From: Litorimonas cladophorae
GTDB taxonomy: Bacteria; Pseudomonadota; Alphaproteobacteria; Caulobacterales; Maricaulaceae
DNA length: 64,000 bases
Reading direction: 5' to 3'
Assembly (NCBI RefSeq): GCF_014652455.1
Contig: NZ_BMYV01000003.1
Span: forward strand, 1 to 64,000
Part shown: one piece after another, positions 1 to 14,259 of the stretch
Numbering within the stretch: position 1 is the stretch's first letter
Layout of the letters: each line of letters starts with the position of its first letter
The notes under the pieces: model-generated
Seen by the model: the letters and a program-made list of their open reading frames with translations, nothing else
Database searches by the model: none
Told to the model about the DNA's origin: nothing
Program-made: the position numbers and the translations under genes

Positions 1-3000
1 TCTCATTATCAACAGCAGACTGGTCACCAATCGCAGCATCAACAACAGGGATCGGGTTGGTAAAACTATAGGTTACGGGTGTAGAGACAGACGTTCCGTC
101 TGGGTCGGTGGCGATAACTGATATCGTATACACTCCAGCTGCGCCGCCTTGAGAGGCATCTGCTGGTGGAGTTCCCGTAATCACGCCTGTGGCTGGATTA
201 ATCGACATCCAGCTTGGGAGGTTGGTTGCCGTGTAACTTAAAGACTCACCGTCTACATCAGAGAAGACAGTTGAAGCATCAAAAGGTACTTGAGCTGTTC
301 CGTCACTGCCCATCTGTGCGGCCAGCGTTCCTGTCACAATTGGCGTATCATTGGCGCCTTGGATAGTGACTGTTACAGTAGCTGTATCTGTCCCACCTTC
401 GCCATCGGAGACCTGATAGGTTAAAGTTGTTGTCGCCGTCTCACCAACGTCGAGGCCTTCAAAATCACCATTTGGGTCGAAGTTTAGGTCACCATTGGCG
501 TCAATCGTGAACAAACCGCCATTTGCACCCGCGACAGAGTTGCCAACGTTGCCAACTGTTCCATCAACCAAAGACACAAAGAGAGAGTCGCCGTCAGGGT
601 CACTATCGGAACCCGTGATTACATTTGTTGTCAGGGCAGTGTCTTCGCTGGTCGTCAGTGCATCATCAACTGCAGTTGGGGCAGGGTTTGTGACTGACAA
701 ATTAAAGGTGTCGGAGACCGTCCCTCCATTGCCATCAATTGCCGTCACGGTAATGGCATACACGCCCGCTGTTCCGCCTTGGCTAGCGGAGTTGTCGATC
801 ATGCCGAAGATTTCGCCTGTAGCAGGATTAATGTTCAAACCTGCCGGTAGATTGATCGCGCTATATGTAAGGGAATCACCATCCGCGTCCGTGATGTCAG
901 CGGTGATTGAAACAGTTTGGCCATCGATTGCAGAGGTATCGGGAATTGCGGTCGCAACAACGGGCACGTCATTCACATCGCGGAAATATAGATCTCGCAC
1001 GAGCGGAATGGCATTACTCCCATCAGCGTCAAGTGCAGGAACCCCCGCCAGGTTAAAGTTGGTGTTAGATGAATCAAGGTTTTCATCGTTTACATCAAAG
1101 CCATCATTGACGTTCGACCCCTCAAACACATCAGCAAGTCCATCGCCATCCGTGTCGCCGGCAGCATAAGTTGCGCCGTGGCCCGCTTCGTCTATGTCTG
1201 CAATACCGTCGTCGTCTGAGTCAGGATCAAGCACGTCTGCTGTGCCTAATCCGTCAGTGTCAACTGGCAGTAAACCGACGCTACCTGCGCCATTAGACGA
1301 GCCCGTTGGAGTCGCGTCATAGACATCATCAAGACCGTCGCCGTCGAAGTCGCCCATAAGGGCACCTGTCCCAGATGGCGCGATATAGCCGGCTGTTGTT
1401 TGAGCTTCGACATTATCAGTGATGCCGTCATCATCGCTGTCGATGTCGAGATGGTCCGCAATACCATCTCCATCAGTGTCTCGGATCACGATTGGCATTT
1501 GGATCAAGAACTCAATTCCATCACCGAGCGTATTGGAGCTATCATTACTATTTGCTGCATCGAAGGTCAGCGTAAAACTAGAGGCCGCGCCCTGTATTTC
1601 CAATGAGCCTGCAGCTGTTTGGTCTGCACCCCAATTAGATTCAGATGCTTGTGTTCCCGTTGTGCCATTTGAGCTGTCGACAGCCGTTGTTGCGGTTGTT
1701 CCAAAGTCAGTGGTTCCTGAAAGTTCTGCCCACGTAAGCCCGCCCGTCAAAGTGATAAGCGCGCTGTTATGTTCATTACCTTGGGTGGTTGGCGTTAATT
1801 GAACGATGGCCGCACCACCGATCCGGTCCATGTGAATAACCGGGTTTAGAACGACTACGGGGTCGCCCGTAACCGTGTCGTAAAATTCAAATGTCAACTC
1901 GCTGCCGAAGCTGAAAACGCCAGACAAGCTGGCATCATTTGCAAGATTGCTAGGGTCCCAAAATTCTTGCCCCGCAGCCTCGCCACCTGGGTTAAGTACA
2001 TTATTCGAAAAGTTACCTAAGAAGGTCGTGCCCGAAACTGAAGTCGAATTTGTCTCCGCGCGAACGGAAATGCCATTTCCAAAATCATAAGTCGCTGTTT
2101 GGCCAGAAAGCACCCAAACGCCCGTTTGTGAATTTGTTTCGATATACCCTTCATTGACATCCAAAATGCCGTCATTGTCGTCATCAATGTCATCTGAGTT
2201 TATGACACCGTCTCCATCAGTGTCAGCTGCGAGAGACGCAGTAAAAGCTGCCGTCGAAAGTGAAGACGTGTTTCCTGACCCAGATCCGCCCGAATCATCA
2301 GAGACGCTCGAAGGAGGATTAGACGCTGTACCGACAGTTCCATCCCAAACTCGGAATCGGATTTCAGCATCGTTGGAAAAACCAGGATTGGGAACAAAAC
2401 GCAGAATTGCGTCTGGATCCATTAATAATGCTTCGCCATCTGGAACAGGATTTGAGTCGGAATTTTCAGGATCACCCAGTTGGAAGTTGGTCCATTGGTG
2501 TTCGAAGTCAGTTTCGACTTCTGAGGTGTCTGGATTATCCGTGATGTCCGGACGACGATACTGCCACACGCCTTCCGTTTCATCTGCGTAAATAATACCA
2601 ATACCAAGATCATTCCCCTCGGCATCAACTGTATCAAGTTGCGCCAAAAGCTCGGCCACCGTAATGATTGTCGGCTCGCCTGCAACCACTGTTGCAAACG
2701 GTGTTGGGCTGCCGCTGCCGACTGTCGTTACCGTACCATTGGAAGAGGTAGATGTTGTTGGAACTGGCGCATCATTTGACCGCTCTACGGTCATGGTTGT
2801 CGTGGCGATGGTCACACCGACAGGGTCAATCACGTTAAATGCAAAGGAACGATTGCCTTCAGAATTGTTCTGGCTTGCGTTTTGATAGGCTAACAACCGC
2901 ATGAACCCTTGCAGGTCATCAGAATTCATCACGCCGATTTGAGAATTTGCATTTTCAATCGTTAGAACGCCTGTTTCATAGGACACGGCGAAAGTTGTCT

Positions 3001-6000
3001 CTCCATATACCAATGGATTCGGCGCTGTAATTTCGCCTGTGCTCAAATCGACAGTAAGCTGTAAATCGCCTTCATCAATTCTGAAAACTTCATCGGAACC
3101 ATCATTATTTGCGGGTAAATTTATCTCAATTTGAATCTGCCCGATATTGTCTTCAGGATCATCAATAACGGCGTCAAAGGTTAGCAGATTGGCAAGTGGT
3201 GCGCCTGGTGTATCTTCAACGAATACAGCGTCGTAATCGGTGCCCGGCAGTGCACCATTCAAGTCAATGATCGGTGAGTCGTTCGTGCCCGTAAGCGTAA
3301 GTGTGACAGTGGCTGTATCCGAACCACCGTTTCCGTCGGAAATGGAATAGGTGAAAGTCTCTTGAGCAGACTCACCTGTATCAAGGTAGTCAAACGCTCC
3401 ATTTGGATCATACTCAAATGATCCATTGGCATTGACAGTTAACAGCGCTCCTGAGCTAAGCGTGATTTGGTTTCCGACATTTGCCGCGACACCTTCCACA
3501 GCGGAGATCGTCAAACTGTCATTGTCCGCGTCACTATCAGCGCCATTCCCATTATCGGTAAGCAGGCTGATGACACTAAGGACGCCATCTTCACTCGTCG
3601 TAAAAGAGTCATTCTGAGCGATTGGCGCCCGGTTGTTCAGGACGCTGTCTCGGAAATCCACATCTGCTGTAAGCGGAACGCCCGCAGACGCGTCTGTGTC
3701 AATATCTGGATAGGACGCGGCGCCGGTCGCGATCCCCTCATTAACCACATATCCATCTGAAGAAGTTGTACCATTTTGCGTATCAAAGACGTCAAAAAGA
3801 CCGTCACCGTCAGCATCATTTAAGGCCGTCGATAAACCTGTGGCCGTGCCGGTCAGACCCGCTTCAACCGTATCATTTGCACCTTCATTATCCGAGTTCG
3901 TATCTCGGAAATCTGGGTTATCCGTGTTATCCGTGTTAACCGGTGACAGACCATTGGGCCCGTAATTGTCATCCAATCCATCTGCGTTTGCATCAGCAAA
4001 ATCTGGAGTGCTTCCGACACCGCTTGGCGCGATATAGCCTGCAGTCGTCTGCGCTTCGATGTTATCTGTTATACCGTCATTATCTGAGTCGATGTCTAGA
4101 TGGTCTGCAATACCATCTAAGTCAGTGTCGATCGGCATCCTTGCCGAAAAATTCAGAGTCAGGTCATCAAACGCAATGGTATTATCAGGCAACACAGTGC
4201 CATTCGCTAAACTGGCGTTATTCTGCTCATTATAAACGTAGAAACGAACTGTATAACTACCCGCTGCGAGGACGGTATCAACATTTTCAAAGGACGTTTC
4301 ATACCCACCGTTAGGTTGAGGCTGGTAACCATCCTGATAGAGGATCGACGAAGTCGCAAAACCGTCGCTAGAAATTTCTGCGGTAACATTATAATTACCA
4401 GCCTGAGATCCGCCCCAACCCGTCGGAACAAGACCATGTTGTATCGAGTTTAAGGTCGCGGCTTCCGATAGCGTGAAGGACACCTCGACGTAGTCATTCT
4501 GGTCACGTGCTTCCTGATATGTATCTGCAGACGCGTCTAAAAGGACATGTTCATAATCTGACCCCGTGGTCGTTAGACCGCTGCCGAAAGAAATATTTTG
4601 AGCCGTCGAAATAAAGCCCTGAGCTGAAGCATCGATGCCGCCTGCAAAGGACGTTCCCGCAGGCGAGCCACCGTTATGGTTCCAAGTTATACCGCCAGAC
4701 ACCAAAGCGCCCATTTCGGCACTGTCTAAGATGCCATCATTATCATCATCGCGATCCGTTACATCCAGAACACCATCGCCATCCGTGTCATACCCAACGG
4801 TAATCGTACCAGAAGACGCGAAGCCCTCTTCGCCCATCTCGTTCGTCACACCGAATGAGATCACTCGAGCCAATTCCATCGTACTGGTTGTGGTGAATCC
4901 AACTTCTTGAAGTGCTAGATCGAAGGTGGACTCTGGCAACGCAAAACCACCAGTCGCCACCAATACAATTTCAGTTGATGTTTGGGATTGGACGCTAACA
5001 TTCACTGGAAGATCAGTCGTATTGACTGTCAAACTATCACCAATTTGGGCGTCCGTCAGGCTGATACGAACCGCCGAAATATCTCCGACGACATTTCGGA
5101 TCGTTACGTCGCTGTCGACAACCGCGATCGTTGCACCAGACCCGATTGCATACGTGCTGTTGTACCCCGTTCCGAGAGCCCCAGAGGAGTCATCCGCGTC
5201 CAAATCAATGGTCGCCTCTCCGCGGAAAGCGATGTGATAAGTAAAGGTCTGGGCTACCCCTGGGTCGTCCAAGTTAAATTGGATGCCAAGTCCGTTATCG
5301 GTATTAGGGTTGACGTCAATCGTGTTCTGAATGTCGCCACCATCGTTGATGCCAACTCCTGGCAATCCACCATAGAGGTTAGATCCATCATATGCCGCAG
5401 AATAATATTGATCAAATTCTTCTCCGCCTTGCTGCTCAGCGAAAGCAGTAAAAGCGTCGATTGTCCCATCACCATCGGCGTCGCGCGCCACACCAACAAC
5501 AGAGGGGTTACCGACACTTTGGTCTAATGTGAAACCTGGTCCCGCGTCAGGGTTTAATCCGGCAGGGACATTGATATTTAAATAGGTGTCAATCGTATGA
5601 TAAAATTTGATCGGAGCTGTATTTGTAGATGGCGGCGTGATTGTAACGCTCTGTGTGAAATATGGATTAGGTGCTGAATATGTGGTGGTTATGACAACTT
5701 CGAAATCGGTCGCTGCATCATAAATACCCGATAGACCACCGGCATCATAAAACATGGTTGTAGTGACAATGTATGGATCGGATCCAGTTCCTGACCCCGT
5801 CACCGTTTGCCCCGACTCAATAAAAGTTACGTCGGTCGAAGCTATTCCAGGACCGTTCGCGGGACCTGAATATGGCCCCGTCAGCGCACTATCTGTGAAA
5901 CCGCCAACCACAGTATTATCGACGGCTAGATACACACCGTTAAAGAGGTGAGCGCTATCGTCTGTCGCCAACGGATGATAGAGTTGTGTCTCGCCGCGGA

Positions 6001-6925
6001 ACACAACTTGCAACTGTCCATTTGACGCTACGTAGATCAATAGTCCATCAGACCCGTCAGCGGCCATACCGCCTGACTGATTTAAAACGGTCCGGTCGAG
6101 CAGGTAGTTCCAATTATCTAAAGTTAGAACATCGGAGTCTATCTCGCCATCCGAAGCTTCCAAATCCCAGTTTCCGCCAAGGTCTGCGGAACCCGTGTCA
6201 TTTGTGGAGGCCGCGATATCAGCACCCGTTAGATCGGCCATTAGACTCAAAGCATCAGAGTTCTGTCCGAAGTCGCAGCCGTAAATCAGGATATCTGCGG
6301 ACTCGGTCAAAGAAGACGCGATGCCAGCAAAATCGTCGGCATGCTCGCCCTGTAATGTTTCGGCCGTAATAATACTGGTACCCAGCGTCAATTGGTCAGA
6401 CTGACCATGGGATAAAATATGTATTGCCGCGACATCGTTGCGATTAGCTAACGTGGTCGTGATGACCTCTAACCCATCCGCATCGGCAGGAATGAATATG
6501 GTTTCATATCCATCGGGTATTTCTGCAGCTAATGATTCCCATCCCTCTACGGACTGGTCAATGAATACAAGTCCAGCGCCATTGACGGGTGGCTCAACCC
6601 AATCAATGTCCAGAACTTCTGCAGCGTTATCCCCAATTGTGTTTGTGCTGGATTGATAGTCAGCTTCGGCCTCACTTAGGGCAGATAGCAAAGCATTGAC
6701 CTGACTAACTTCGCCTCTCGGCGCCAGAGGTGTCGCCTCAGTGTTGAAAAGGATCGCCATATCCTCAGCAACATTTTGCGTATCCATCGCGTCCATTGCA
6801 ACATCTGCCCCAGTCACAAATCCCGCTGCATCCAATAGTATCCGGGGCTCTAGAGCGCGAAGACCCAGGCGAGAGGTGCTGTTTTTCAACTTATTGGTGA
6901 TAGGGTTTTTGGTTTTCTCGGACAT
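1..6925 (-). CDS. Giant LEPR-XLL / DUF4347 / cadherin-like surface protein (3' part outside window)
   Basis: The reading frame is open from an ATG at 6925 (GGAAGAG ribosome site just upstream) to the left edge, giving at least 2308 residues with no stop. Residues 25-32 read LEPRILLD, the LEPR-XLL motif found at the N-terminus of very large secreted proteins. Residues about 118-268 match a DUF4347 domain (HILSHG and LIYGCDFGQN segments). The rest is a low-complexity, Asp/Thr-rich array: thrombospondin-type-3-like Ca-binding runs (DTDGDGV, DDDNDGI), cadherin-like or VCBS-like domains (FTYSISDGNGGSDTATVT), and putative Ig domains (INPATGVITGTP). No Sec signal peptide is apparent. The family suggests a Ca-stabilised adhesin exported by a type I-like route. 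The adjacent TolC and adaptor genes are the likely exporter, which is an inference. The true length and C-terminal signal are unknown. Confidence 0.9.
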   Translation of the reverse strand, partial: MSEKTKNPITNKLKNSTSRLGLRALEPRILLDAAGFVTGADVAMDAMDTQNVAEDMAILFNTEATPLAPRGEVSQVNALLSALSEAEADYQSSTNTIGDNAAEVLDIDWVEPPVNGAGLVFIDQSVEGWESLAAEIPDGYETIFIPADADGLEVITTTLANRNDVAAIHILSHGQSDQLTLGTSIITAETLQGEHADDFAGIASSLTESADILIYGCDFGQNSDALSLMADLTGADIAASTNDTGSADLGGNWDLEASDGEIDSDVLTLDNWNYLLDRTVLNQSGGMAADGSDGLLIYVASNGQLQVVFRGETQLYHPLATDDSAHLFNGVYLAVDNTVVGGFTDSALTGPYSGPANGPGIASTDVTFIESGQTVTGSGTGSDPYIVTTTMFYDAGGLSGIYDAATDFEVVITTTYSAPNPYFTQSVTITPPSTNTAPIKFYHTIDTYLNINVPAGLNPDAGPGFTLDQSVGNPSVVGVARDADGDGTIDAFTAFAEQQGGEEFDQYYSAAYDGSNLYGGLPGVGINDGGDIQNTIDVNPNTDNGLGIQFNLDDPGVAQTFTYHIAFRGEATIDLDADDSSGALGTGYNSTYAIGSGATIAVVDSDVTIRNVVGDISAVRISLTDAQIGDSLTVNTTDLPVNVSVQSQTSTEIVLVATGGFALPESTFDLALQEVGFTTTSTMELARVISFGVTNEMGEEGFASSGTITVGYDTDGDGVLDVTDRDDDNDGILDSAEMGALVSGGITWNHNGGSPAGTSFAGGIDASAQGFISTAQNISFGSGLTTTGSDYEHVLLDASADTYQEARDQNDYVEVSFTLSEAATLNSIQHGLVPTGWGGSQAGNYNVTAEISSDGFATSSILYQDGYQPQPNGGYETSFENVDTVLAAGSYTVRFYVYNEQNNASLANGTVLPDNTIAFDDLTLNFSARMPIDTDLDGIADHLDIDSDNDGITDNIEAQTTAGYIAPSGVGSTPDFADANADGLDDNYGPNGLSPVNTDNTDNPDFRDTNSDNEGANDTVEAGLTGTATGLSTALNDADGDGLFDVFDTQNGTTSSDGYVVNEGIATGAASYPDIDTDASAGVPLTADVDFRDSVLNNRAPIAQNDSFTTSEDGVLSVISLLTDNGNGADSDADNDSLTISAVEGVAANVGNQITLSSGALLTVNANGSFEYDPNGAFDYLDTGESAQETFTYSISDGNGGSDTATVTLTLTGTNDSPIIDLNGALPGTDYDAVFVEDTPGAPLANLLTFDAVIDDPEDNIGQIQIEINLPANNDGSDEVFRIDEGDLQLTVDLSTGEITAPNPLVYGETTFAVSYETGVLTIENANSQIGVMNSDDLQGFMRLLAYQNASQNNSEGNRSFAFNVIDPVGVTIATTTMTVERSNDAPVPTTSTSSNGTVTTVGSGSPTPFATVVAGEPTIITVAELLAQLDTVDAEGNDLGIGIIYADETEGVWQYRRPDITDNPDTSEVETDFEHQWTNFQLGDPENSDSNPVPDGEALLMDPDAILRFVPNPGFSNDAEIRFRVWDGTVGTASNPPSSVSDDSGGSGSGNTSSLSTAAFTASLAADTDGDGVINSDDIDDDNDGILDVNEGYIETNSQTGVWVLSGQTATYDFGNGISVRAETNSTSVSGTTFLGNFSNNVLNPGGEAAGQEFWDPSNLANDASLSGVFSFGSELTFEFYDTVTGDPVVVLNPVIHMDRIGGAAIVQLTPTTQGNEHNSALITLTGGLTWAELSGTTDFGTTATTAVDSSNGTTGTQASESNWGADQTAAGSLEIQGAASSFTLTFDAANSNDSSNTLGDGIEFLIQMPIVIRDTDGDGIADHLDIDSDDDGITDNVEAQTTAGYIAPSGTGALMGDFDGDGLDDVYDATPTGSSNGAGSVGLLPVDTDGLGTADVLDPDSDDDGIADIDEAGHGATYAAGDTDGDGLADVFEGSNVNDGFDVNDENLDSSNTNFNLAGVPALDADGSNAIPLVRDLYFRDVNDVPVVATAIPDTSAIDGQTVSITADITDADGDSLTYSAINLPAGLNINPATGEIFGMIDNSASQGGTAGVYAITVTAIDGNGGTVSDTFNLSVTNPAPTAVDDALTTSEDTALTTNVITGSDSDPDGDSLFVSLVDGTVGNVGNSVAGANGGLFTIDANGDLNFDPNGDFEGLDVGETATTTLTYQVSDGEGGTDTATVTVTIQGANDTPIVTGTLAAQMGSDGTAQVPFDASTVFSDVDGESLSYTATNLPSWMSINPATGVITGTPPADASQGGAAGVYTISVIATDPDGTSVSTPVTYSFTNPIPVVDAAIGDQSAVDNE

Positions 6926-6962
6926 GGTCAACTCTTCCATTCGATTAAGCGGTGGCGATATT

Positions 6963-7154: not shown

Positions 7155-8642
7155 CTAGCCTGGAGCGCGGGCACGCTCGGTCCAAAGGACCTTTAAATCG
7201 GCTGCGATGGTGTCGATATTTTCAGTTCCATCAATAGCTGTGGTGTAAGGATCATATCCAAGTGCCGTGTAGATATGCGCTGAGGCCTCAGCCATTTCCG
7301 CCATCACCGCATCACGACGAGCTTCCGATAAAATCGAATTCATTCGTTCACGAATAAGAGTTTGCTTCGACGCAGAGGACGCTTTCGCCAAGGACTCTAT
7401 CTGACCGAGGATGTCACCCTGGACCATGGCGCCGTCACTGGCTGTTTTATATTCGCTGGCTAGACTTTCATATCTAGTGCGCGCCACACCGACTTGGGTC
7501 ATAACAGCCATAGCTGTCGCTAAACCACGCTCTCGCTCAAGTGCAGCCTGCGCTTTCGCTTTTTTCTTTCTCTTCCCAGTTGAGAAAACTTTCAGGAGAT
7601 TCCAGCTCGCCCTTGCGCCATATCCGGCCCAGTCATTATTGAAGAGGAAGTCGTTTGAGGAAGCATCAATCCCAACGAAACCCTCCAAAGATGGAAGAGC
7701 CTCTAGGGTAGCTTTCTTGATTTCCATTTCGCCTATTCTTTGCGCGTAAAGGCTCTCACGGATTTCTGGGCGGTTCTGTAACGCCTGATCGATCATTTCC
7801 TCATACGTCATAACCATCCGATTTGGACGCGGCATTTGTTCGGGCAATTGCAATGAATACTGCTGATCAGGTGCAAGCCCCATTAAAGCAGCTAATTCTA
7901 ATTTTGCCATTTGCATGTCGCGAGTAAGTCGCTGCGCTTGCCCTTGAATATCGTTTAATTCACGCTGGTACGATAGGGCGGGCATCGGCGCAGTTCGACG
8001 AAGGGCGAATTGCTGGCGTGATGTTTGAAAAGCGCTGCTAACATCGCCTTCGAGGGCACGCAGACGGCTGGCAAGGCGTTCCGCCGATACAGCTCGATAA
8101 TACGCACGATGCACGTCTTCCATAATTTGAATGATCGCTTTGCGACGACGTTCTTCTTGAATCAGAGCTTCATCGCCCAACTGCTGTGCGCGGATTTTAG
8201 ACAGACCGAAATCAAGAATATTCCAACTTGCCGTCAGATCGCCTGTGTAAATATCACGTTCTTGCGACGTCGATGGTTCAAGAGATTGCCTGCCAGACAG
8301 GAGGGAAAGTGACGACGCCCCGGCCTCATTTGATCGCCCGTAATATTGCCCATTCGCAACGATTTGCGGCAGCATATCCCAGCGTGACAAATCATAATCG
8401 GCTTGAGCTAAATCCGCTTCCATCATGGCCACATGATGATCGAGATTATGTTTCAACGACCTTGCCATCGCTTCGTATAACGAGATTGACCCCGTTACTG
8501 GGGTCTGGCGACTTTCTATCTCAACGCGAGAAGAAGTTGCAAAATTTGCGGCTTCAGCATCTGTGACCCTCGATACGGTTGCCGAGCACCCCACTAGCAA
8601 TACAGCTGCGCCGCAGGCTGTTCCCAAGAGTATTTTTCGCAT
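7155..8642 (-). CDS. TolC-family outer membrane efflux lipoprotein
   Basis: This is a 495-residue outer membrane factor of the TolC superfamily, forming the trans-periplasmic exit duct of tripartite exporters. The ATG at 8642 has GGAG seven bases upstream and gives an N-terminus whose lipobox (LLVGC, Cys19) marks a lipoprotein; an in-frame TTG four codons earlier lies over the ribosome site and is less likely. Two long alpha-helical repeats rich in Ala, Gln and Arg (about 55-230 and 270-460) are typical of OEP domains. The length fits the family. It lies between the giant surface-protein gene (same strand, downstream) and the divergent adaptor operon, so it probably serves their export. Confidence 0.88.
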   Translation of the reverse strand: MRKILLGTACGAAVLLVGCSATVSRVTDAEAANFATSSRVEIESRQTPVTGSISLYEAMARSLKHNLDHHVAMMEADLAQADYDLSRWDMLPQIVANGQYYGRSNEAGASSLSLLSGRQSLEPSTSQERDIYTGDLTASWNILDFGLSKIRAQQLGDEALIQEERRRKAIIQIMEDVHRAYYRAVSAERLASRLRALEGDVSSAFQTSRQQFALRRTAPMPALSYQRELNDIQGQAQRLTRDMQMAKLELAALMGLAPDQQYSLQLPEQMPRPNRMVMTYEEMIDQALQNRPEIRESLYAQRIGEMEIKKATLEALPSLEGFVGIDASSNDFLFNNDWAGYGARASWNLLKVFSTGKRKKKAKAQAALERERGLATAMAVMTQVGVARTRYESLASEYKTASDGAMVQGDILGQIESLAKASSASKQTLIRERMNSILSEARRDAVMAEMAEASAHIYTALGYDPYTTAIDGTENIDTIAADLKVLWTERARAPG

Positions 8643-8897
8643 GAAGTTCTCCAATATGCCACTTTTGGTTGTAGCTAGAGAGAATGTTTGAACTAATTCT
8701 TAATATGCTATCACAAATTGTAATTTCATTCGGGGGGCGCCTTGGAATACTAAACGGCTAGGTTCCTCACACGCGTCGAAATACAGATGCGTGCTACCGA
8801 TACAGACACTGATAAATTCAAAACTTATAATTGTATTTTAAGATCAGGTTAAGTCTTCCTATGCAATCTTTGAGTGTATTTATAAATAGGCTCGCTT
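8643..8897. promoter_or_regulatory. Divergent promoter region between TolC and adaptor operon
   Basis: This AT-rich spacer of about 255 bases separates two divergent genes and must hold both promoters. It contains an imperfect dyad near 8770-8795 (CACGCGT and ATGCGTG) and AT-rich tracts around 8695-8735 and 8815-8890. No clear -35/-10 pair is assigned. Confidence 0.4.
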
Positions 8898-9674
8898 ATG
8901 TCTCGAATTCTACGGCACACTATTCCAACTCTTGCATTTGCACTGGTTTCAACCCCAACCTTTGGTCTCGAGACCGCAGGTAAGGAAGTTGCGATCCCAA
9001 AAGACGAAACTGCGCTCTCAGTCTCTACACGCGGCGTGCTTGTCGCTGGGCAGTCAGCCGACATCTCTGCAGGAATGACGGGGCGCTTAACATTTACCCC
9101 CTTTAAGACAGGTCAGTATTTCAAGCGCGGCGCCACTTTGGCAAAGTTTGATTGCGAGCGTCAGGAAGCGGAACTACAATCACGACAGGCCGCGCATGCA
9201 ACACAATCTTTAAGATATGAAAATCAGGCAGAGCTACTCAAAATGGGGGCTGCGGGAGAGTTAGATGTCTCTATCGCGAAGTCTGAACGCGATCAAATCG
9301 CGGCAGAGGTCTCCTCTCTGAAGATTGCCTTGAAAGATTGCGTGGTCTCAGCGCCCTTTCCTGGATTCATAACCGCACGCCACGTAGATGCCTATGAAAG
9401 CGTCCAAGCGGGCCAACCGCTTTACTCTCTCAATCGCGCCGGGACGACCGAAATCTCGATCATTGCCCCTTCGGCCTGGGCCAGTTGGGTCAAAAGCGGC
9501 ACGAAATTGACGTTTAAAGTCGACGAAACAAGCGAGTCTGTGGCGGCAAAAGTCCAACGCCTATCCGCTATCGTCGATCCCGTTAGTCAGACAATCGAGA
9601 TTACGGCACAATTGACAGGAAAACACTCTGGCCGACCCGGCATGAGCGGAATTGCGGTTTTTGAGGCGCCATAA
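8898..9674 (+). CDS. Periplasmic adaptor (HlyD/RND membrane-fusion-protein family)
   Basis: This 258-residue secreted adaptor has an N-terminal signal peptide of about 23 residues. A barrel-sandwich (lipoyl-like) half follows (GMTGRLTFTPFKTGQYFKRGATLAKFD split around residues 59-85), then a short coiled coil (about 90-145), the second lipoyl half (VVSAPFPGFITARHVDAYESV) and a beta-barrel domain. It lacks the C-terminal membrane-proximal part of large RND adaptors. It is first of three genes with 3-nt gaps, so it is probably translated with the next two adaptors and docks to the divergently encoded TolC protein. Confidence 0.85.
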   Translation: MSRILRHTIPTLAFALVSTPTFGLETAGKEVAIPKDETALSVSTRGVLVAGQSADISAGMTGRLTFTPFKTGQYFKRGATLAKFDCERQEAELQSRQAAHATQSLRYENQAELLKMGAAGELDVSIAKSERDQIAAEVSSLKIALKDCVVSAPFPGFITARHVDAYESVQAGQPLYSLNRAGTTEISIIAPSAWASWVKSGTKLTFKVDETSESVAAKVQRLSAIVDPVSQTIEITAQLTGKHSGRPGMSGIAVFEAP

Positions 9675-9677
9675 CTG

Positions 9678-11030
9678 ATGGCCGAACCTGTCAAATTAAG
9701 GTCTGTTGCACCACCGGAAGCTCGACGTTCGCGTCCCAGCGTCTTAGAAACACTGATCCGCTTGGAAGGCGAAGCCATTGCCGCAACCGATGCGCTGTCC
9801 CTGCAACATCAGGCCGTCAACAAGCCCAGAGACATCCTCGACTGCGGACACATCTTTTGGGTCTCTAGAAAAGGCTCAGCCGTTAAAATCTTGGCTGTTA
9901 CTGGCCAAGAACAAATGGAACGCCACACGCCTTTCGGGCAATGGCTCAAATCCGATTTAAAGACTCGAATTCAGAAAGGCGAATTGAACACGGCCAGTCA
10001 ATGGCAATTCAAATCTGGGAAGAGTGGCGATGTCATTACCTACCCCTTTATTCACGCATTCTTCGCGCCCTTTTCCCCAAACCCAAAATCTGGCGGGCTC
10101 TTATTCGCCTTTGCTGCGCCACCGCCTGAATCGCATGTGCCAATTATGGCGAGATTGGGTGAAATCTACGGTCTTGTACACGCAGCGCGACGCGGCGCCA
10201 AACGCGCGCGCATGGCGCCGCGCAAACGCAACTTGTTTTTGGGAACGGTTGGAGCTCTCGCACTCATTGGTTTAATTCCAATTCCAATGACGACACTCGC
10301 CCCTGCGGAAGTCGTAGCGGATTCTCCATTCATACTGTCAGCTGAGTTTGATGGCGTGATAAAAGATATTCTTGTGGCGCCGAACGCCCAAGTAAAGGCA
10401 GGTGACGCTTTGGTTCAATTGGACGACGTCACTCTACGAAATGAGCTGATCCTAGCGGAAAAAGAGCTCCAATTGTCAGAAGTAAGGCGCAAAATGGCAG
10501 GGTTGCGCGCCTTTGTTGACGCTGAAGCGAAACGGGAATTGGCTGTGGCCAATGCCGAAGCCGATTTAGCCAAAGCGCGGCGCGATTATGCGCAAGAGCG
10601 GCTAGATAAAACAATTCTACGAGCGCCTCGCGATGGCTTGGCACTATTTTCAGATGTCTCCGAGCTGACTGGGCAGCCCGTGAGCAATGGTGAGGCAATT
10701 CTTCGAATTGCTGAACCCACACGTGTACTCTTGCGCCTCCATGCCCCCCTCGCTCATGGCGAGGCGTTGCGCGAGGGTGCGCGTGTGCGGATGTTCCTCG
10801 ATACCGATCCTGTAACCCCTTTAGAAGCAGAGCTGGTCAGAGCGAGCTACCGAGCTGTCACCCTTCCAGAAGGCGGCATGGCCTTTGATGCGCATGCTAT
10901 GCTGACTGATGGTGACGTGCCTCGGATTGGCGCGCGCGGCGTCGCGAAAATCTATGGAGAAAAAGCGCCACTTGGCTATTTCCTTATTCGCCGCCCATTA
11001 ACGTTGTTCCGTCAAATGACAGGCCTCTGA
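9678..11030 (+). CDS. Membrane-anchored HlyD-family adaptor with cytosolic N-terminal domain
   Basis: The protein has 450 residues. Residues 1-180 are cytosolic and resemble a GAF-like sensory fold in length and position, which is a tentative reading. One transmembrane helix lies at about 186-206 (LGTVGALALIGLIPIP). A periplasmic HlyD-type lipoyl/coiled-coil/beta-barrel module follows (FDGVIKDILVAPNAQVKAG near 225; LRAPRDGLALFSD near 315). The start at 9678 is 3 nt after the previous stop. Together with the next gene it provides a two-adaptor inner-membrane platform. No ATPase domain is present. The extended cytosolic head could recognise cargo, which is an inference. Confidence 0.8.
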   Translation: MAEPVKLRSVAPPEARRSRPSVLETLIRLEGEAIAATDALSLQHQAVNKPRDILDCGHIFWVSRKGSAVKILAVTGQEQMERHTPFGQWLKSDLKTRIQKGELNTASQWQFKSGKSGDVITYPFIHAFFAPFSPNPKSGGLLFAFAAPPPESHVPIMARLGEIYGLVHAARRGAKRARMAPRKRNLFLGTVGALALIGLIPIPMTTLAPAEVVADSPFILSAEFDGVIKDILVAPNAQVKAGDALVQLDDVTLRNELILAEKELQLSEVRRKMAGLRAFVDAEAKRELAVANAEADLAKARRDYAQERLDKTILRAPRDGLALFSDVSELTGQPVSNGEAILRIAEPTRVLLRLHAPLAHGEALREGARVRMFLDTDPVTPLEAELVRASYRAVTLPEGGMAFDAHAMLTDGDVPRIGARGVAKIYGEKAPLGYFLIRRPLTLFRQMTGL

Positions 11031-11033
11031 CCC

Positions 11034-13148
11034 ATGCAGGCTGCGGCAGAGGAGCAAGCACCGCCGCTTCCGCCATTGCGGCAGGAGTTGCGCCTAGAGC
11101 GCGATGAATTGCGAGATCGTTGGCTATTGCATGATCCCGTCCGGGGACGGTTTCATGCCATCGGGCATGTTGCGTTCACGGCTTTAGCCCACTGGGATAC
11201 CATCCAGCCCGATGAATTCATCACACAACTAAATGCAGAAAACCCAGATCTAGATTTCGACGCAGAGGAATTAAAAGAACTCACGGAGTTTCTTTTTGCA
11301 GAAAAGCTCCTGGACCAAAAGGGAGGCCAAGACGCTGAACGGCTGGCAACACATGAGGCGGCGCTTCGCAAACCGTGGCATGAACAGCTGATACACAAAT
11401 ATCTTTTTTTCAGGATACCTCTCTGGAATCCACAGGCTTTTCTGGATCGGACTGGCCCATCTGTCTCAAGATTTTTAAGACCGTCGGTTTTTAAAGTTAT
11501 TTTTTTTGTGGGCCTTATCGGCCTCTATTTCGCCTTGCGACAATGGGATAACTTCACCTCAACCTTTCTCTATTTTTTCACGCCACAAGGGTTTCTTTTT
11601 TACGGCCTGAGTTTGATCGTATTAAAAATCTTGCATGAACTCGGACATGCCTACGCGGCTCGTCATTTCGGCGCGCGAGTTCCAGTTATTGGCATCGCAT
11701 TTTTGGTCATGTTTCCAATCCTCTACACCGACACCACCGACGCTTGGCGGGTACAGGAGCGACGTTCCCGGACATTGATCAACGGCGCTGGTATCACAGT
11801 AGAGCTCTGCATCGCCGCGATCTCTGTATTTTTATGGGCCTTTCTCCCCGATGGAATTTTTCGCTCTATCGCGTTTTTTGCCGCCACGACGAGTTGGGCG
11901 ATGAGCTTGTTTGTCAATTTGAACCCATGGATGCGTTTCGATGGCTATTATTTGATAAGCGACCTTCTAGGCGTTGAGAATTTGCAAAAGCGGGGCTTCG
12001 AAGTTGGCCGCTGGGTGATGCGAAACACACTATTTGGCTTAGACGAAGGTCTTTCGGAATCTTATCCGCGGAAAGCACTTTTCGGGATGACGATCTACGC
12101 TTGGTCGACATGGGTTTATCGGTTTTTCCTGTTCTTAGGGATCGCCATCCTCGTTCATCATATTTTCCCAAAGGCAATCGGGATTGTGCTGTTTACCGTT
12201 GAGATTGCCATGTTCATCGCCGTTCCTATCTGGCGCGAAATCAAACATTGGTGGAGCCAACGTATGTCTATCTTGTCCCATAATCGCGGCCGTGCAACCT
12301 TGGCCGTGTCGACCCTCGCACTTTTGGCCTTCGTTGTGCCTTGGCCCTCAACGGTCAGTGCCCCCGCCCTTATCCGACCTGCGGACGACACCCGACTCTA
12401 CCCGCCTGCAGCAGCTCGCATTCAGTCAATCTCTATTCGCAATGGAGACACCGTAAGCGAAGGCACAATTGTAATGCAGCTTTCGTCCCCGGCATTATTG
12501 CACGCCAAGGCGCTCGCCGAGCTAGAGTTAAAAGTTGCAGAAGCACGTTGGGCCCAACGCGCGGCGTCGCTACAGGACCGTCAATCGGGCGAGCTTCTTC
12601 GGGATGAATTGGAGCAAAAACGCGAAGCTCTGGAGTCAGTCAATCGGGAACTGGACCGCTTGACTCTGCGTGCACCCCACAAAGGTGTGATTTCCGACAT
12701 GCCCGACAGCTTGACGTCAGGCACACAAGTCCAGGTCGCTTCGGCGCTTATGAGGATATCAGACCACGAAAAAATTGAACTCATTGCACTTCCTTCGGAA
12801 AAGCACGCCGATCGTTTGGCCAGCGGCAATGATTTCGTATTCATCAGCGATCAAGCAGGCCGGCCCAAACGTGGCGGACAACTTGCCCATCTAGCGCCAA
12901 CAGCCGACATCTACGTGACCGAGCCCGTGCTAACAGTCATGGGTGGGGGGCCAATCGCCGTGAAAGAAGATGACCAAGGTCACGCGATTGCCGATATTCC
13001 TGTGTTTAAAGTCTCAGGTCCGCTGCCCAATGAACAGCTCTTACGAGAGGAGCGCGGCGTCGTACGTATTGATGCCAAGCCGCGCAGCGCAGCTCGTGCC
13101 GTCTATAATTCAACTATGGGCATATTACTGCGGGAGACGGACTTCTAA
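11034..13148 (+). CDS. PqqD-like / M50 site-2-protease-like / HlyD fusion protein
   Basis: This 704-residue protein has three parts. Residues about 15-95 resemble a PqqD-type peptide-binding winged helix (WLLHDPVRGRFHAIG). Residues about 150-440 form a polytopic membrane domain with the M50 zinc motif HELGH at 201-205 and the second ligand motif NLNPWMRFDGYY at 295-306 (Asp303). Residues about 445-704 form a HlyD-type lipoyl and coiled-coil module (IRNGDTVSEG near 469; LRAPHKGVISD near 545). All M50 catalytic residues are present. It ends an operon with two adaptors and probably sits in the inner membrane, cleaving or gating an exported partner; the giant LEPR-XLL protein is the obvious candidate. 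That link is inferred from position only. Confidence 0.85.
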   Translation: MQAAAEEQAPPLPPLRQELRLERDELRDRWLLHDPVRGRFHAIGHVAFTALAHWDTIQPDEFITQLNAENPDLDFDAEELKELTEFLFAEKLLDQKGGQDAERLATHEAALRKPWHEQLIHKYLFFRIPLWNPQAFLDRTGPSVSRFLRPSVFKVIFFVGLIGLYFALRQWDNFTSTFLYFFTPQGFLFYGLSLIVLKILHELGHAYAARHFGARVPVIGIAFLVMFPILYTDTTDAWRVQERRSRTLINGAGITVELCIAAISVFLWAFLPDGIFRSIAFFAATTSWAMSLFVNLNPWMRFDGYYLISDLLGVENLQKRGFEVGRWVMRNTLFGLDEGLSESYPRKALFGMTIYAWSTWVYRFFLFLGIAILVHHIFPKAIGIVLFTVEIAMFIAVPIWREIKHWWSQRMSILSHNRGRATLAVSTLALLAFVVPWPSTVSAPALIRPADDTRLYPPAAARIQSISIRNGDTVSEGTIVMQLSSPALLHAKALAELELKVAEARWAQRAASLQDRQSGELLRDELEQKREALESVNRELDRLTLRAPHKGVISDMPDSLTSGTQVQVASALMRISDHEKIELIALPSEKHADRLASGNDFVFISDQAGRPKRGGQLAHLAPTADIYVTEPVLTVMGGGPIAVKEDDQGHAIADIPVFKVSGPLPNEQLLREERGVVRIDAKPRSAARAVYNSTMGILLRETDF

Positions 13149-13266
13149 GACTTAGGGACCCAAAAATCTTGGTTGGCTGAACTTCGATCATAGAACCGAC
13201 ACCTAACATCATCCATTCAGCTCACTCGGACGTATTTTGAAGGTAACCCACTCAAAGTAGGCCTAA

Positions 13267-14259
13267 GTGAAACCATCGATAACGACATATTTGCCCCTCC
13301 GGTCTGGAGAGCGGCCTGTTGAGAACGCGCCTTTAGTTCAAACAGAGTCTGGCAACCAATGTATTCCCCAGCATTATCTGGAGTTCCATCATACCTTAGG
13401 AACCATCGAGGAAATCGTTTCTCAAATTGCCTACTCGGCGCGCTACCCTGTATTCGTCAGCGAAGATGAAGGTGGGATATTCGTGCAGATTGGGGTTATC
13501 GGACCCGATAATTACAAGGCCATACCGAGCGAAAAAATCGTATTCGGGCGGCGCTGGCGTGTAGAACCACATCTTCCGACATCCGAAATCATTCAAACGG
13601 TTTTCCTGGCTCTAAAAAAAGCGCGCGAACATGAAATTCGTGAACAATTTGTGCTCTTGTCAGATGAACGCGTAACGACACCCTTTAATTGCCATCATGA
13701 CTTACCGCTTATGGTTCATTTGTCAGATGAGCTGTCGAGACACCACCGCGAGGATTTTTCACTGATAGAGTTGCAGGACTTGCTAACTTGCATGCGGTTC
13801 CAAGACGTCGAATATGAACTTCTTGAGTCTTTGCAATTGGCTAGCGGAGCATTTGCCGTGACCTTGCGGGCGCAGACACGTTGCTCAGATTTTATCGATG
13901 TTTATGGCGCGAAAATAAGTTTTATAACCCCAACGCTCGACAGTGCGGCGCTATTGCACAATATCGCTGCAGAGTTGATCCGTCTGAGCGACCGACATGT
14001 CGACGAAACCTTTACATTCGATGGCTTCGCGAGGTTTAGTCACGCCATCGACCCCTTCGCCATTGCAGAAATGTCGGCGAAATATCGTGCACATCCGTCC
14101 AAATTCATGGATCCAAACGCGGTCGCGCCACAATTAAAGAATGCGCTAAAGTCGATGAATTATGAAGTTGACCAGAAACGCATTCCCGCTTTGTCAGACA
14201 GCCTTTACGGGGCGCGTATCAGAGAGAATTTGGCCACTTTTGGCCTAGCTATAAGCTAA
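13267..14259 (+). CDS. Conserved-looking hypothetical protein of the export locus
   Basis: I do not recognise this 330-residue soluble protein. It starts at a GTG (13267) with only a weak AGTAGG upstream, 118 nt after the M50 fusion gene and on the same strand. It has no signal peptide or membrane helix. It is His- and Asp-rich with mixed alpha/beta character; the first 130 residues (around FHHTLGTIEEIVSQIAYSAR) and the rest look like two domains. Its place downstream of the exporter suggests an accessory or cytosolic chaperone role. That is inference, and it could be an independent gene. Confidence 0.6.
   Translation: MKPSITTYLPLRSGERPVENAPLVQTESGNQCIPQHYLEFHHTLGTIEEIVSQIAYSARYPVFVSEDEGGIFVQIGVIGPDNYKAIPSEKIVFGRRWRVEPHLPTSEIIQTVFLALKKAREHEIREQFVLLSDERVTTPFNCHHDLPLMVHLSDELSRHHREDFSLIELQDLLTCMRFQDVEYELLESLQLASGAFAVTLRAQTRCSDFIDVYGAKISFITPTLDSAALLHNIAAELIRLSDRHVDETFTFDGFARFSHAIDPFAIAEMSAKYRAHPSKFMDPNAVAPQLKNALKSMNYEVDQKRIPALSDSLYGARIRENLATFGLAIS

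Follow-up and report, generated by a model that had tools for sequence, protein, structure and literature searches.

A conserved module built around an M50 protease-HlyD fusion is linked to LEPR-XLL-tagged giant proteins and probably serves their export

Gene organization of the locus

We analyzed the first 64,000 nucleotides of contig NZ_BMYV01000003.1 (C3, 399 kb) from the 3.02 Mb genome of Litorimonas cladophorae, hereafter termed the window, which starts at the first base of that contig. At its left end, a giant cargo gene adjoins genes for a TolC-family outer-membrane lipoprotein, two HlyD-type adaptors, and a third HlyD part fused to an M50 intramembrane protease with a PqqD-like head, which we together refer to as the module. 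An earlier note, made from the sequence alone, had described these components as an ATPase-free exporter, and each of them was found in its place beside the giant gene, although the latter (2–6940) falls outside the interval 7155–14259 that the note covered. Among named relatives, uncultured Caulobacterales are the closest, with M50 proteins 78–84% identical to the window copy. The module is conserved in many other bacteria and has no motor in its own gene cluster. Our analysis indicates that it probably reads a short N-terminal tag of the adhesin-like giant, cleaves this tag, and delivers the protein to the cell surface.

The two genes on the minus strand are those of the cargo and the TolC-type channel. 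The cargo gene (2–6940), cut by the contig start, encodes the N-terminal 2313 residues of a protein with a DUF4347 domain and Ig/cadherin repeats. Its N-terminal LEPR-XLL tag region lies at 6776–6883, with the core LEPRILLDAA at 6824–6853, and the DUF4347 domain (6128–6571; E 4.5e-42) is predicted to have a caspase-like fold with a conserved His and Cys. The TolC-family lipoprotein gene (7155–8654; Pfam OEP, 1.1e-35), which is conserved in relatives, encodes a lipobox-like LVGC; translation more likely begins at an ATG at codon 5 than at the TTG. According to the gene positions, a divergent intergenic region (8655–8897) separates this pair from the HlyD operon on the plus strand, where HlyD1, HlyD2, and the M50-HlyD fusion follow each other with a spacing of 3 bases each. 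HlyD1 (8898–9674) is a periplasmic adaptor with a hydrophobic N-terminal stretch, whereas HlyD2 (9678–11030) consists of a GAF-related head (about residues 1–185, identified by profile comparison), one hydrophobic segment, and an HlyD part; both match Pfam HlyD families. The fusion (11034–13148; Peptidase_M50 2.8e-7, HlyD_D23 3.7e-10) combines a predicted PqqD/RRE-like head (residues 10–95; 11061–11318), the M50 part, and an HlyD adaptor part assigned by Pfam and Foldseek (residues 435–702; 12336–13139).

An N-terminal tag links the giant cargo to the module

The earlier note had called the giant protein a LEPR-XLL protein. This designation fails by the NCBIfam LEPR-XLL model NF012209, which gives the window cargo 14.6 bits against a cut-off of 17 bits, but it stands against a tag profile of 30 cargos, the window's included, with 53 bits. 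The profile (A9; 36 columns) was built from cargo N-termini chosen by motif pattern, partly from genomes that were later searched. L, E, and R of the tag are invariant in all 30 rows, the choice of rows having required L or M, E or Q, and R at these positions, and the commonest form among the members found here is LExRx(M/L)(F/L)D(A/G)A.

The tag marks the starts of giant open frames near the module. We collected 60 neighborhoods (L numbers below), one per M50-positive genus; another 7 positive genera are not represented, two of them because the gene lies at a contig edge and five because they were not retrieved. They contain 26 frames of at least 600 residues with a visible start and a low content of Arg, Cys, His, and Trp, 22 of which carry the tag within the first 160 residues; of the four untagged ones, one is probably antisense, one is masked, one is an internal fragment, and one encodes an unlike 668-residue protein, none of them being a cargo start. 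The tag occurred in only one of 731 other open reading frames (ORFs), itself a cut cargo, in none of 198 module proteins, nowhere in 100,499 residues of cargo interior, and in 2 of 5200 shuffles. The longest tagged open frame in the sample reaches 14,920 residues (tag match E 0.009).

Searching 397 genomes of the phylum (G numbers below) with the tag profile gave a match at E <=0.01 in 77, of which 72 were also positive for the M50 gene. The five matches in M50-negative genomes (G495, G561, G617, G656, and G754) start at column 13 or 16, beyond the LE columns, which is why we excluded them, a decision taken only after they had been seen. With these five set aside, tag and M50, tag only, M50 only, and neither were found in 72, 0, 16, and 309 genomes, respectively; when they are counted, the tag is present in 5 of 309 M50-negative genomes. 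The removal of the 17 genomes that had donated to the profile changed the table to 55/0/16/309, the tag being found in 55 of 71 M50-positive genomes. The tag is thus tightly linked to the module.

DUF4347 is a looser companion of the M50 gene (68/88 M50-positive versus 19/309 M50-negative genomes; odds ratio 52; 40/11/13/168 when counted by genus). We rejected it as the export tag because it also occurs in these 19 M50-negative genomes, which all lack the N-terminal tag, and because the tagged cargos of G001, G022, and L003 (837 residues seen) do not show its SHG and GC(D/N) signatures.

Distribution and conservation of the module

At E 1e-10, a profile of the head and M50 parts matched 26 of the 387 genomes searched in the class and 88 of the 397 in the phylum, five of the 88 matches being weak (1.9e-13 to 3.3e-59). 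Within the window's own genus the distribution is patchy, with a full-length M50 gene in 8 of 18 genomes, its own included, by our reading of the table. Among the 60 neighborhoods, HlyD2 was found in 58, HlyD1 in 51, and TolC in 31; as many stretches are cut by contig ends, the counts of HlyD1, TolC, and cargo are lower bounds. The co-occurrence across genomes that the earlier note had anticipated was borne out for the LEPR-XLL cargo, the HlyD adaptors, and the M50-HlyD fusion, with TolC often joining them.

The order giant-TolC-HlyD-HlyD-M50-HlyD recurs in plasmid records from Variovorax, Azospirillum, Kosakonia, Burkholderia, and Escherichia coli; the Variovorax cargo coding sequence spans 48.7 kb, and the Azospirillum cargo is annotated as two genes. 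For Phyllobacterium and Eleftheria, the annotation lists neither TolC nor HlyD1. In E. coli, the module is rare (24 of 5426 genomes), with 21 places on plasmids and 4 on chromosomes.

A tree of 72 fusions separated two clades (SH-aLRT, an approximate likelihood-ratio test, 100), one of 60 rows including the window's, and a sister clade of 12 rows. The tree was a quick one supported by SH-aLRT only, and genomes outside it were assigned to a clade by bit score.

When the neighboring ORFs of at least 60 residues were clustered, no further gene family was common to more than 5 of the 60 loci. A conserved extra motor or substrate gene was set aside on this ground, no cluster, the SecA-like one included, exceeding that number. 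These observations also bear on the idea that the neighborhood is coincidental and that what leaves through the module is a small peptide or compound, as is the case for its relatives in clusters for ribosomally synthesized and post-translationally modified peptides (RiPPs). The best-scoring named M50 relatives do come from RiPP clusters, and the survey took in ORFs of at least 60 residues only; yet all 72 tag-positive genomes, with the five partial matches set aside, possess the M50 gene, and no other family accompanies the module in more than 5 of the 60 loci, which makes a small product highly improbable.

The PqqD-like-M50-HlyD fusion and the HlyD2 head

The M50 motifs are complete, as the earlier note had stated. 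The zinc-binding HELGH occupies residues 201–205 (11634–11648), and the second motif, NLNPWMRFDG, which contains the Asp, occupies residues 295–304 (11916–11945). H201, E202, H205, N295, P298, F302, and D303 are invariant in all 26 aligned fusions with at least 22% identity to the window copy, and both motif patterns are present in 69 of 72 fusions of the wider set, the other three missing one. Because the catalytic residues are invariant, this conservation argues for an active protease. The best-scoring named families for the M50 part are the daptide intramembrane metalloproteases (NF041824; 3.6e-38; 131.7 bits, below the model's own cut-off of 300) and YydH/LiaK (2.3e-8).

We modeled the fusion with AlphaFold from 11 sequences. 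The head (residues 10–95) was predicted as three strands and three helices with a confidence score (pLDDT) of about 70–88, and the confidently modeled HlyD part matched MacA (1.6e-12) and an AcrA model (7.0e-12) in Foldseek. This predicted beta3-alpha3 order agrees with the PqqD-like head claimed in the earlier note, as do the Pfam PqqD matches to the head of 3 of the 26 homologous fusions. Profile columns 20–97 also weakly match 6jx3_B in the Protein Data Bank (E 0.24), the lasso-peptide RRE protein TfuB1. The PqqD-like identity of the window head is therefore likely. The head of HlyD2 is related to the GAF-bearing head of its sister-clade counterpart (hhalign E 2e-7); GAF_2 was matched directly by 3 of 18 HlyD2 proteins, the window's not among them.

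The giant cargo and its two ends

A frame of 2873 residues, open at its start, lies at the end of contig C1 (L181:11377–19998). It shares 72.5% identity over 1194 residues with the end of a relative's cargo, contains many Ig/cadherin repeats, and has the same kind of tail. The frame is evidently the C-terminal piece of the window's cargo, which would make C1 and C3 neighbors across an assembly gap. The cargo is thus known as two separate pieces of 2313 and 2873 residues, not joined, with an unseen stretch between them; the complete cargos of five relatives have 3277 to 5948 residues.

Neither piece, nor any of the five full-length cargos of relatives, contains an RTX nonapeptide (GGxGxDxU), and we rejected RTX-type repeats as a feature of the window's cargo. 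Among 37 cargo-like frames of more than 800 residues in neighborhoods of the window's clade, such repeats were seen only in L120 (1 and 3, in two frames) and L165 (6).

The His and Cys of DUF4347 are conserved in 6 of 6 sequences. The best Foldseek match is 9qpe_G (7.7e-5), which has DUF4347 and belongs to a type VI secretion complex. Legumain and caspase-3 come next (about 1e-3), both with low TM-scores, and some unrelated folds reach the same level. A later self-cut of the cargo by the predicted caspase-like DUF4347 is possible. Among the Magnetococcales, the cargos (L008, L009, L010, and L138:3931–8676) are short, with about 1580 residues and DUF4347 near the start, and the one that was scanned, L138, has a Peptidase_C14 caspase domain at its end.

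The cargo N-termini are weakly hydrophobic. Peaks over 12 residues range from 1.12 to 1.93 in 18 cargos and from 0.93 to 2.05 in 20 neighborhood cargos (one gene being in both sets), as compared with medians of 2.42 for 43 HlyD1 and 2.52 for 30 TolC proteins. Low hydrophobicity speaks weakly against a normal Sec signal, and a Sec signal peptide on the cargo was set aside on this basis, though the ranges overlap.

In the window's clade, cargos with a visible end share a motif of the form F/L-S/T-x-Q-hydrophobic about 13–45 residues from that end. The strict form, [FL][ST]xQ[LIVMF], was counted in 20 of 35 cargos (shuffled tails: mean 0.63, highest 4), 5 of 925 other ORF ends, and 3 of 200 module proteins, and a looser core in 27 of 35 cargos, 8 being without it (shuffles: mean 2.36), 40 of 925 other ORFs, and 15 of 200 module proteins. 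As the motif was spotted by eye first and counted afterwards, these counts are descriptive and not a test. Left out of the count were frames without a visible end, shorter than 800 residues, or masked, all sister-clade cargos, untagged frames except one of L132, and L005–L010, the first frame of L012, and L015. The last 60 residues of the C1 piece hold LQQQM and LREQV, the core form only.

A tag at one end and a separate conserved motif at the other would also suit a release switch, in which the N-terminus is held after export and cleavage by the M50 protease frees the adhesin, as in LapA-type control. The GAF-related head of HlyD2, often a sensor fold, points the same way. LapA uses an ABC (ATP-binding cassette) exporter and a periplasmic cysteine protease. 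The window's cargo resembles LapA-type adhesins in its giant size, and cleavage close to the N-terminus could conceivably serve for control; unlike in theirs, neither an ABC exporter nor a periplasmic cysteine protease was seen in the module. We regard the release switch as an unlikely account of the M50 protease.

Candidate motors of the proposed export process

No ABC component was visible to the earlier note, and this held: we found no PF00664 ABC exporter on contig C3, and an ABC ATPase appeared in only 1 of the 60 neighborhoods, as a fragment at the edge of the stretch. Clustering of the neighboring ORFs instead brought up a SecA-like cluster, and a direct search found SecA-like frames in 7 of the 60 neighborhoods. 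When placed on the tree, SecA-like frames stand beside the M50 gene in 9 of 12 sister-clade rows, one being degenerate (L176:15542–17494; SecA_DEAD only 16.5 bits) and one lying in two frames (L136), whereas none was seen in the 60 rows of the window's clade. An additional search of 80 genomes, 61 with and 19 without the M50 gene, yielded 16 extra SecA_DEAD copies of at least 45 bits in 14 genomes, and all 15 copies whose surroundings were inspected lie within 3 kb of an M50 gene with a sister-clade score (the other copy is the second SecA of G497). The remaining extra matches were short and below 32 bits, and below 26 bits in the 19 M50-negative genomes.

All seven full-length dedicated SecA-like proteins that were scanned possess the DEAD, P-loop, and preprotein-binding domains and lack SecA_SW, the wing and scaffold domain, which the housekeeping SecA of the window genome has. 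The wing and scaffold of canonical SecA work with SecY. The absence of this part suggests that the sister-clade ATPase has another partner in the membrane, the M50-HlyD protein being the simplest candidate, and it points towards the M50 membrane part as the way through the inner membrane. The SecA-like ATPase is not indispensable even in the sister clade, since in G659 and G558 a search for a second SecA yielded nothing but short matches below 26 bits; the copy in G428 is degenerate.

The earlier note had proposed that the M50 domain replaces the ATPase. The module of the window is indeed free of an ATPase, but the proposal is only partly supported, because the sister clade keeps a SecA-like ATPase beside the M50 gene, which makes it more likely that M50 acts with a motor rather than as one. 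Hence, "ATPase-free" is right for the module and unproven for the process. Two scenarios for the window's clade could be considered. The housekeeping SecA, with or without SecYEG, could drive the crossing of the inner membrane, while the module processes the leader and builds the conduit through periplasm and outer membrane. This genome has one true SecA (926 residues, contig C2), and the clade-only carriers searched have the housekeeping SecA only. A SecA relative adjoins M50 in the sister clade, where a dedicated motor seems dispensable (G659, G558, and G428), and the incomplete gene table of a 69-kb E. coli plasmid with the module lists no ABC exporter or SecA. On the other hand, the cargo N-termini are weakly hydrophobic in comparison with HlyD1 and TolC, though with overlapping ranges, and the sister-clade SecA lacks the very domain that works with SecY in canonical SecA. 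We consider the housekeeping SecA a plausible motor, falling a little short of even chances.

Alternatively, there might be no ATPase at all, the M50 membrane domain serving as inner-membrane receptor and gate and transport being driven by the proton motive force or by folding outside. Consistent with this scenario are the single ABC edge fragment among 60 loci, the presence of only the housekeeping SecA in this genome and the searched clade-only carriers, and the 7 of 51 carriers in which no type I ABC gene exceeded a cut-off. Transport without an ATPase nevertheless appears decidedly improbable: most sister-clade members keep an intact SecA-like ATPase, a folding ratchet outside is not obvious for the almost RTX-free cargos of the window's clade, and the M50 part is poorly modeled.

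Discussion

We lean towards the view that the module is dedicated to exporting and processing giant surface proteins with an N-terminal LExR...DAA/DGA leader. The cytoplasmic PqqD-like head would bind the leader, and the M50 membrane domain would receive, hold, and cut it, the cut starting or finishing export. Leader reading and cleavage are favored because the best-scoring M50 families are RiPP-linked, and the daptide enzyme among them is a leader peptidase that depends on an RRE. The three adaptors, namely HlyD1, HlyD2, and the HlyD part of the fusion, could assemble into a mixed ring docked to the TolC-type lipoprotein, which would give the giant protein a single conduit to the outside. The conserved tail motif could be a second address, perhaps at the end that is engaged first. 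The driving force in the sister clade would come from the SecA-like ATPase without the wing and scaffold domain. In the window's clade, the motor would lie outside the module, the housekeeping SecA being the first candidate and a motor-free or proton-driven route the second.

Several observations weigh against this view. There was no tag match in 16 of the 88 M50-positive genomes, which have lower M50 scores, at sister-clade level or weak by our reading of the score table, and a Phyllobacterium locus has an untagged neighbor. The M50 gene stands without HlyD1 or HlyD2 in 2 of the 60 loci (L157 and L168). The window's head gives no Pfam PqqD match of its own at E 0.1. The membrane part of the fusion was modeled poorly (pLDDT about 31–51 over residues 100–310), and neither passage nor active-site topology can be judged from the model. 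As mentioned, the hydrophobicity ranges of cargos and true signal-bearing proteins overlap. Moreover, 6 of 10 sister-clade cargos (L019, L020, L170, L172, L173, and L174) contain 10–27 RTX nonapeptides.

The last point of this kind concerns an ABC exporter elsewhere in the genome, which, if required for secretion of the giant protein, would speak against the proposal of the earlier note. The window genome has five PF00664 ABC exporters on C1 and C2, one of them in an HlyD-ABC-TolC set on C1 (whose HlyD is truncated in the stretch examined). A type I ABC gene passes one of three model cut-offs in 44 of 51 carriers, this genome included. Such an exporter might move the cargo, with the module only processing or retaining it, and a Vibrio giant protein described with both LEPR-XLL and RTX domains (PMC10868602) would fit such a division of labor. 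However, in 7 of the 51 carriers no type I ABC gene passes any of the three cut-offs; five of these (G335, G438, G574, G629, and G748) have best scores in the range of ordinary ABC exporters by our reading of the tables, while G062 and G488 have stronger relatives below the cut-offs. In addition, no ABC gene is linked to the module, which owns adaptors and a TolC. Export of the cargo by a distant type I exporter is, in our estimate, distinctly unlikely.

The export and processing machine that we favor can be compared with four further kinds of known systems. The earlier note knew of no characterized system of this form, but such a form is not entirely without precedent: a SecA-bearing relative, a locus of secondary SecA_DEAD, GAF-HlyD, Peptidase_M50-HlyD, and HlyD, was described by Kamneva, Poudel and Ward (2015; PMC4452313). 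Its authors suggested SecA as the ATPase and M50 as the pore; LEPR, cargo, giant, and adhesin do not occur in the main text, and no cargo is named there. The two loci share the M50-HlyD fusion, an HlyD with a GAF or GAF-related head (the GAF relation resting in the window's clade on profile comparison only), a third HlyD, sometimes an OEP, and the lack of an ABC gene. They differ in that the window's clade forms a separate deep clade without a SecA-like gene seen.

Type I secretion (HlyB-HlyD-TolC) likewise uses HlyD adaptors, a TolC-type channel, and giant repeat cargos. The module differs in having the M50-HlyD fusion in place of the ABC exporter, an N-terminal leader, and cargos with almost no RTX in the clade. 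As defined, neither type I secretion nor the SecA locus admits the module as a member, although it resembles both in part.

The third comparison is with RRE-linked leader peptidases. For daptides, MpaP is described as an RRE-dependent intramembrane peptidase that removes the leader from precursors with an ELExMEAP motif (PMC10036551). The window's protein resembles MpaP, with YydH/LiaK as a further M50 relative, in its site-2 protease and in the predicted PqqD/RRE-like head fused to it, and the daptide precursors, like the cargos, have an N-terminal motif with an LE core. In contrast to the MpaP type, the window's protein is fused to HlyD, its substrate would have thousands of residues rather than those of a short peptide, and no RiPP tailoring genes were seen at the module. 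Finally, the LEPR-XLL proteins of NF012209 share the N-terminal LEPR motif on very large proteins, the window copy scoring below the cut-off.

In the open-licence literature of PubMed Central, outside which many subscription papers lie, we found neither the pairing of LEPR-XLL with this export machine nor an experimental study of the module. Within the reach of these searches, the following are new: the existence of a clade without a SecA-like gene, the tag together with its linkage to the module, the motif in the cargo tails, and the absence of the wing and scaffold domain from the sister-clade ATPase.

The module is real, conserved, and barely studied, and the chance is fair that it should be placed in a separate class. 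More specifically, it is possible, although we put this forward only tentatively, that it represents a separate kind of secretion system, in which a leader-reading intramembrane protease would be the inner-membrane gate of a TolC conduit for cargos of about 900 to more than 14,000 residues, with one branch pushed by a SecY-independent SecA derivative and the window's branch devoid of a dedicated motor. If true, the route to the surface would be explained for many of the largest bacterial proteins, and the LEPR-XLL tag, many DUF4347-bearing giants, and the SecA locus of 2015 would be given a function, while the identity of the driving motor would become a direct genetic question. The reach of such a system would be wide, every tagged genome in the sample of the phylum, apart from the five partial matches, being among the 88 of 397 with the head and M50 parts.

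Other genes near the module

The gene downstream of the fusion in the window (13267–14259) was considered as a fifth component and rejected, as it was seen in L002 but not in L001, L003, or L004; its product is a 330-residue orphan with no Pfam match. In the sister clade, a DUF3467 protein is encoded upstream of the HlyD2 and M50 genes (L020, L021, and L171). In Variovorax paradoxus VAI-C, a type II secretion gene set directly follows the module downstream (L011:14204–22834). Small proteins annotated as tail fibre adjoin the module on Kosakonia and Burkholderia plasmids, and a cluster of proteins of similar appearance is present in 5 of the 60 loci (for both, L122:16615–17322, L014:17062–19169, and L017:379–993).

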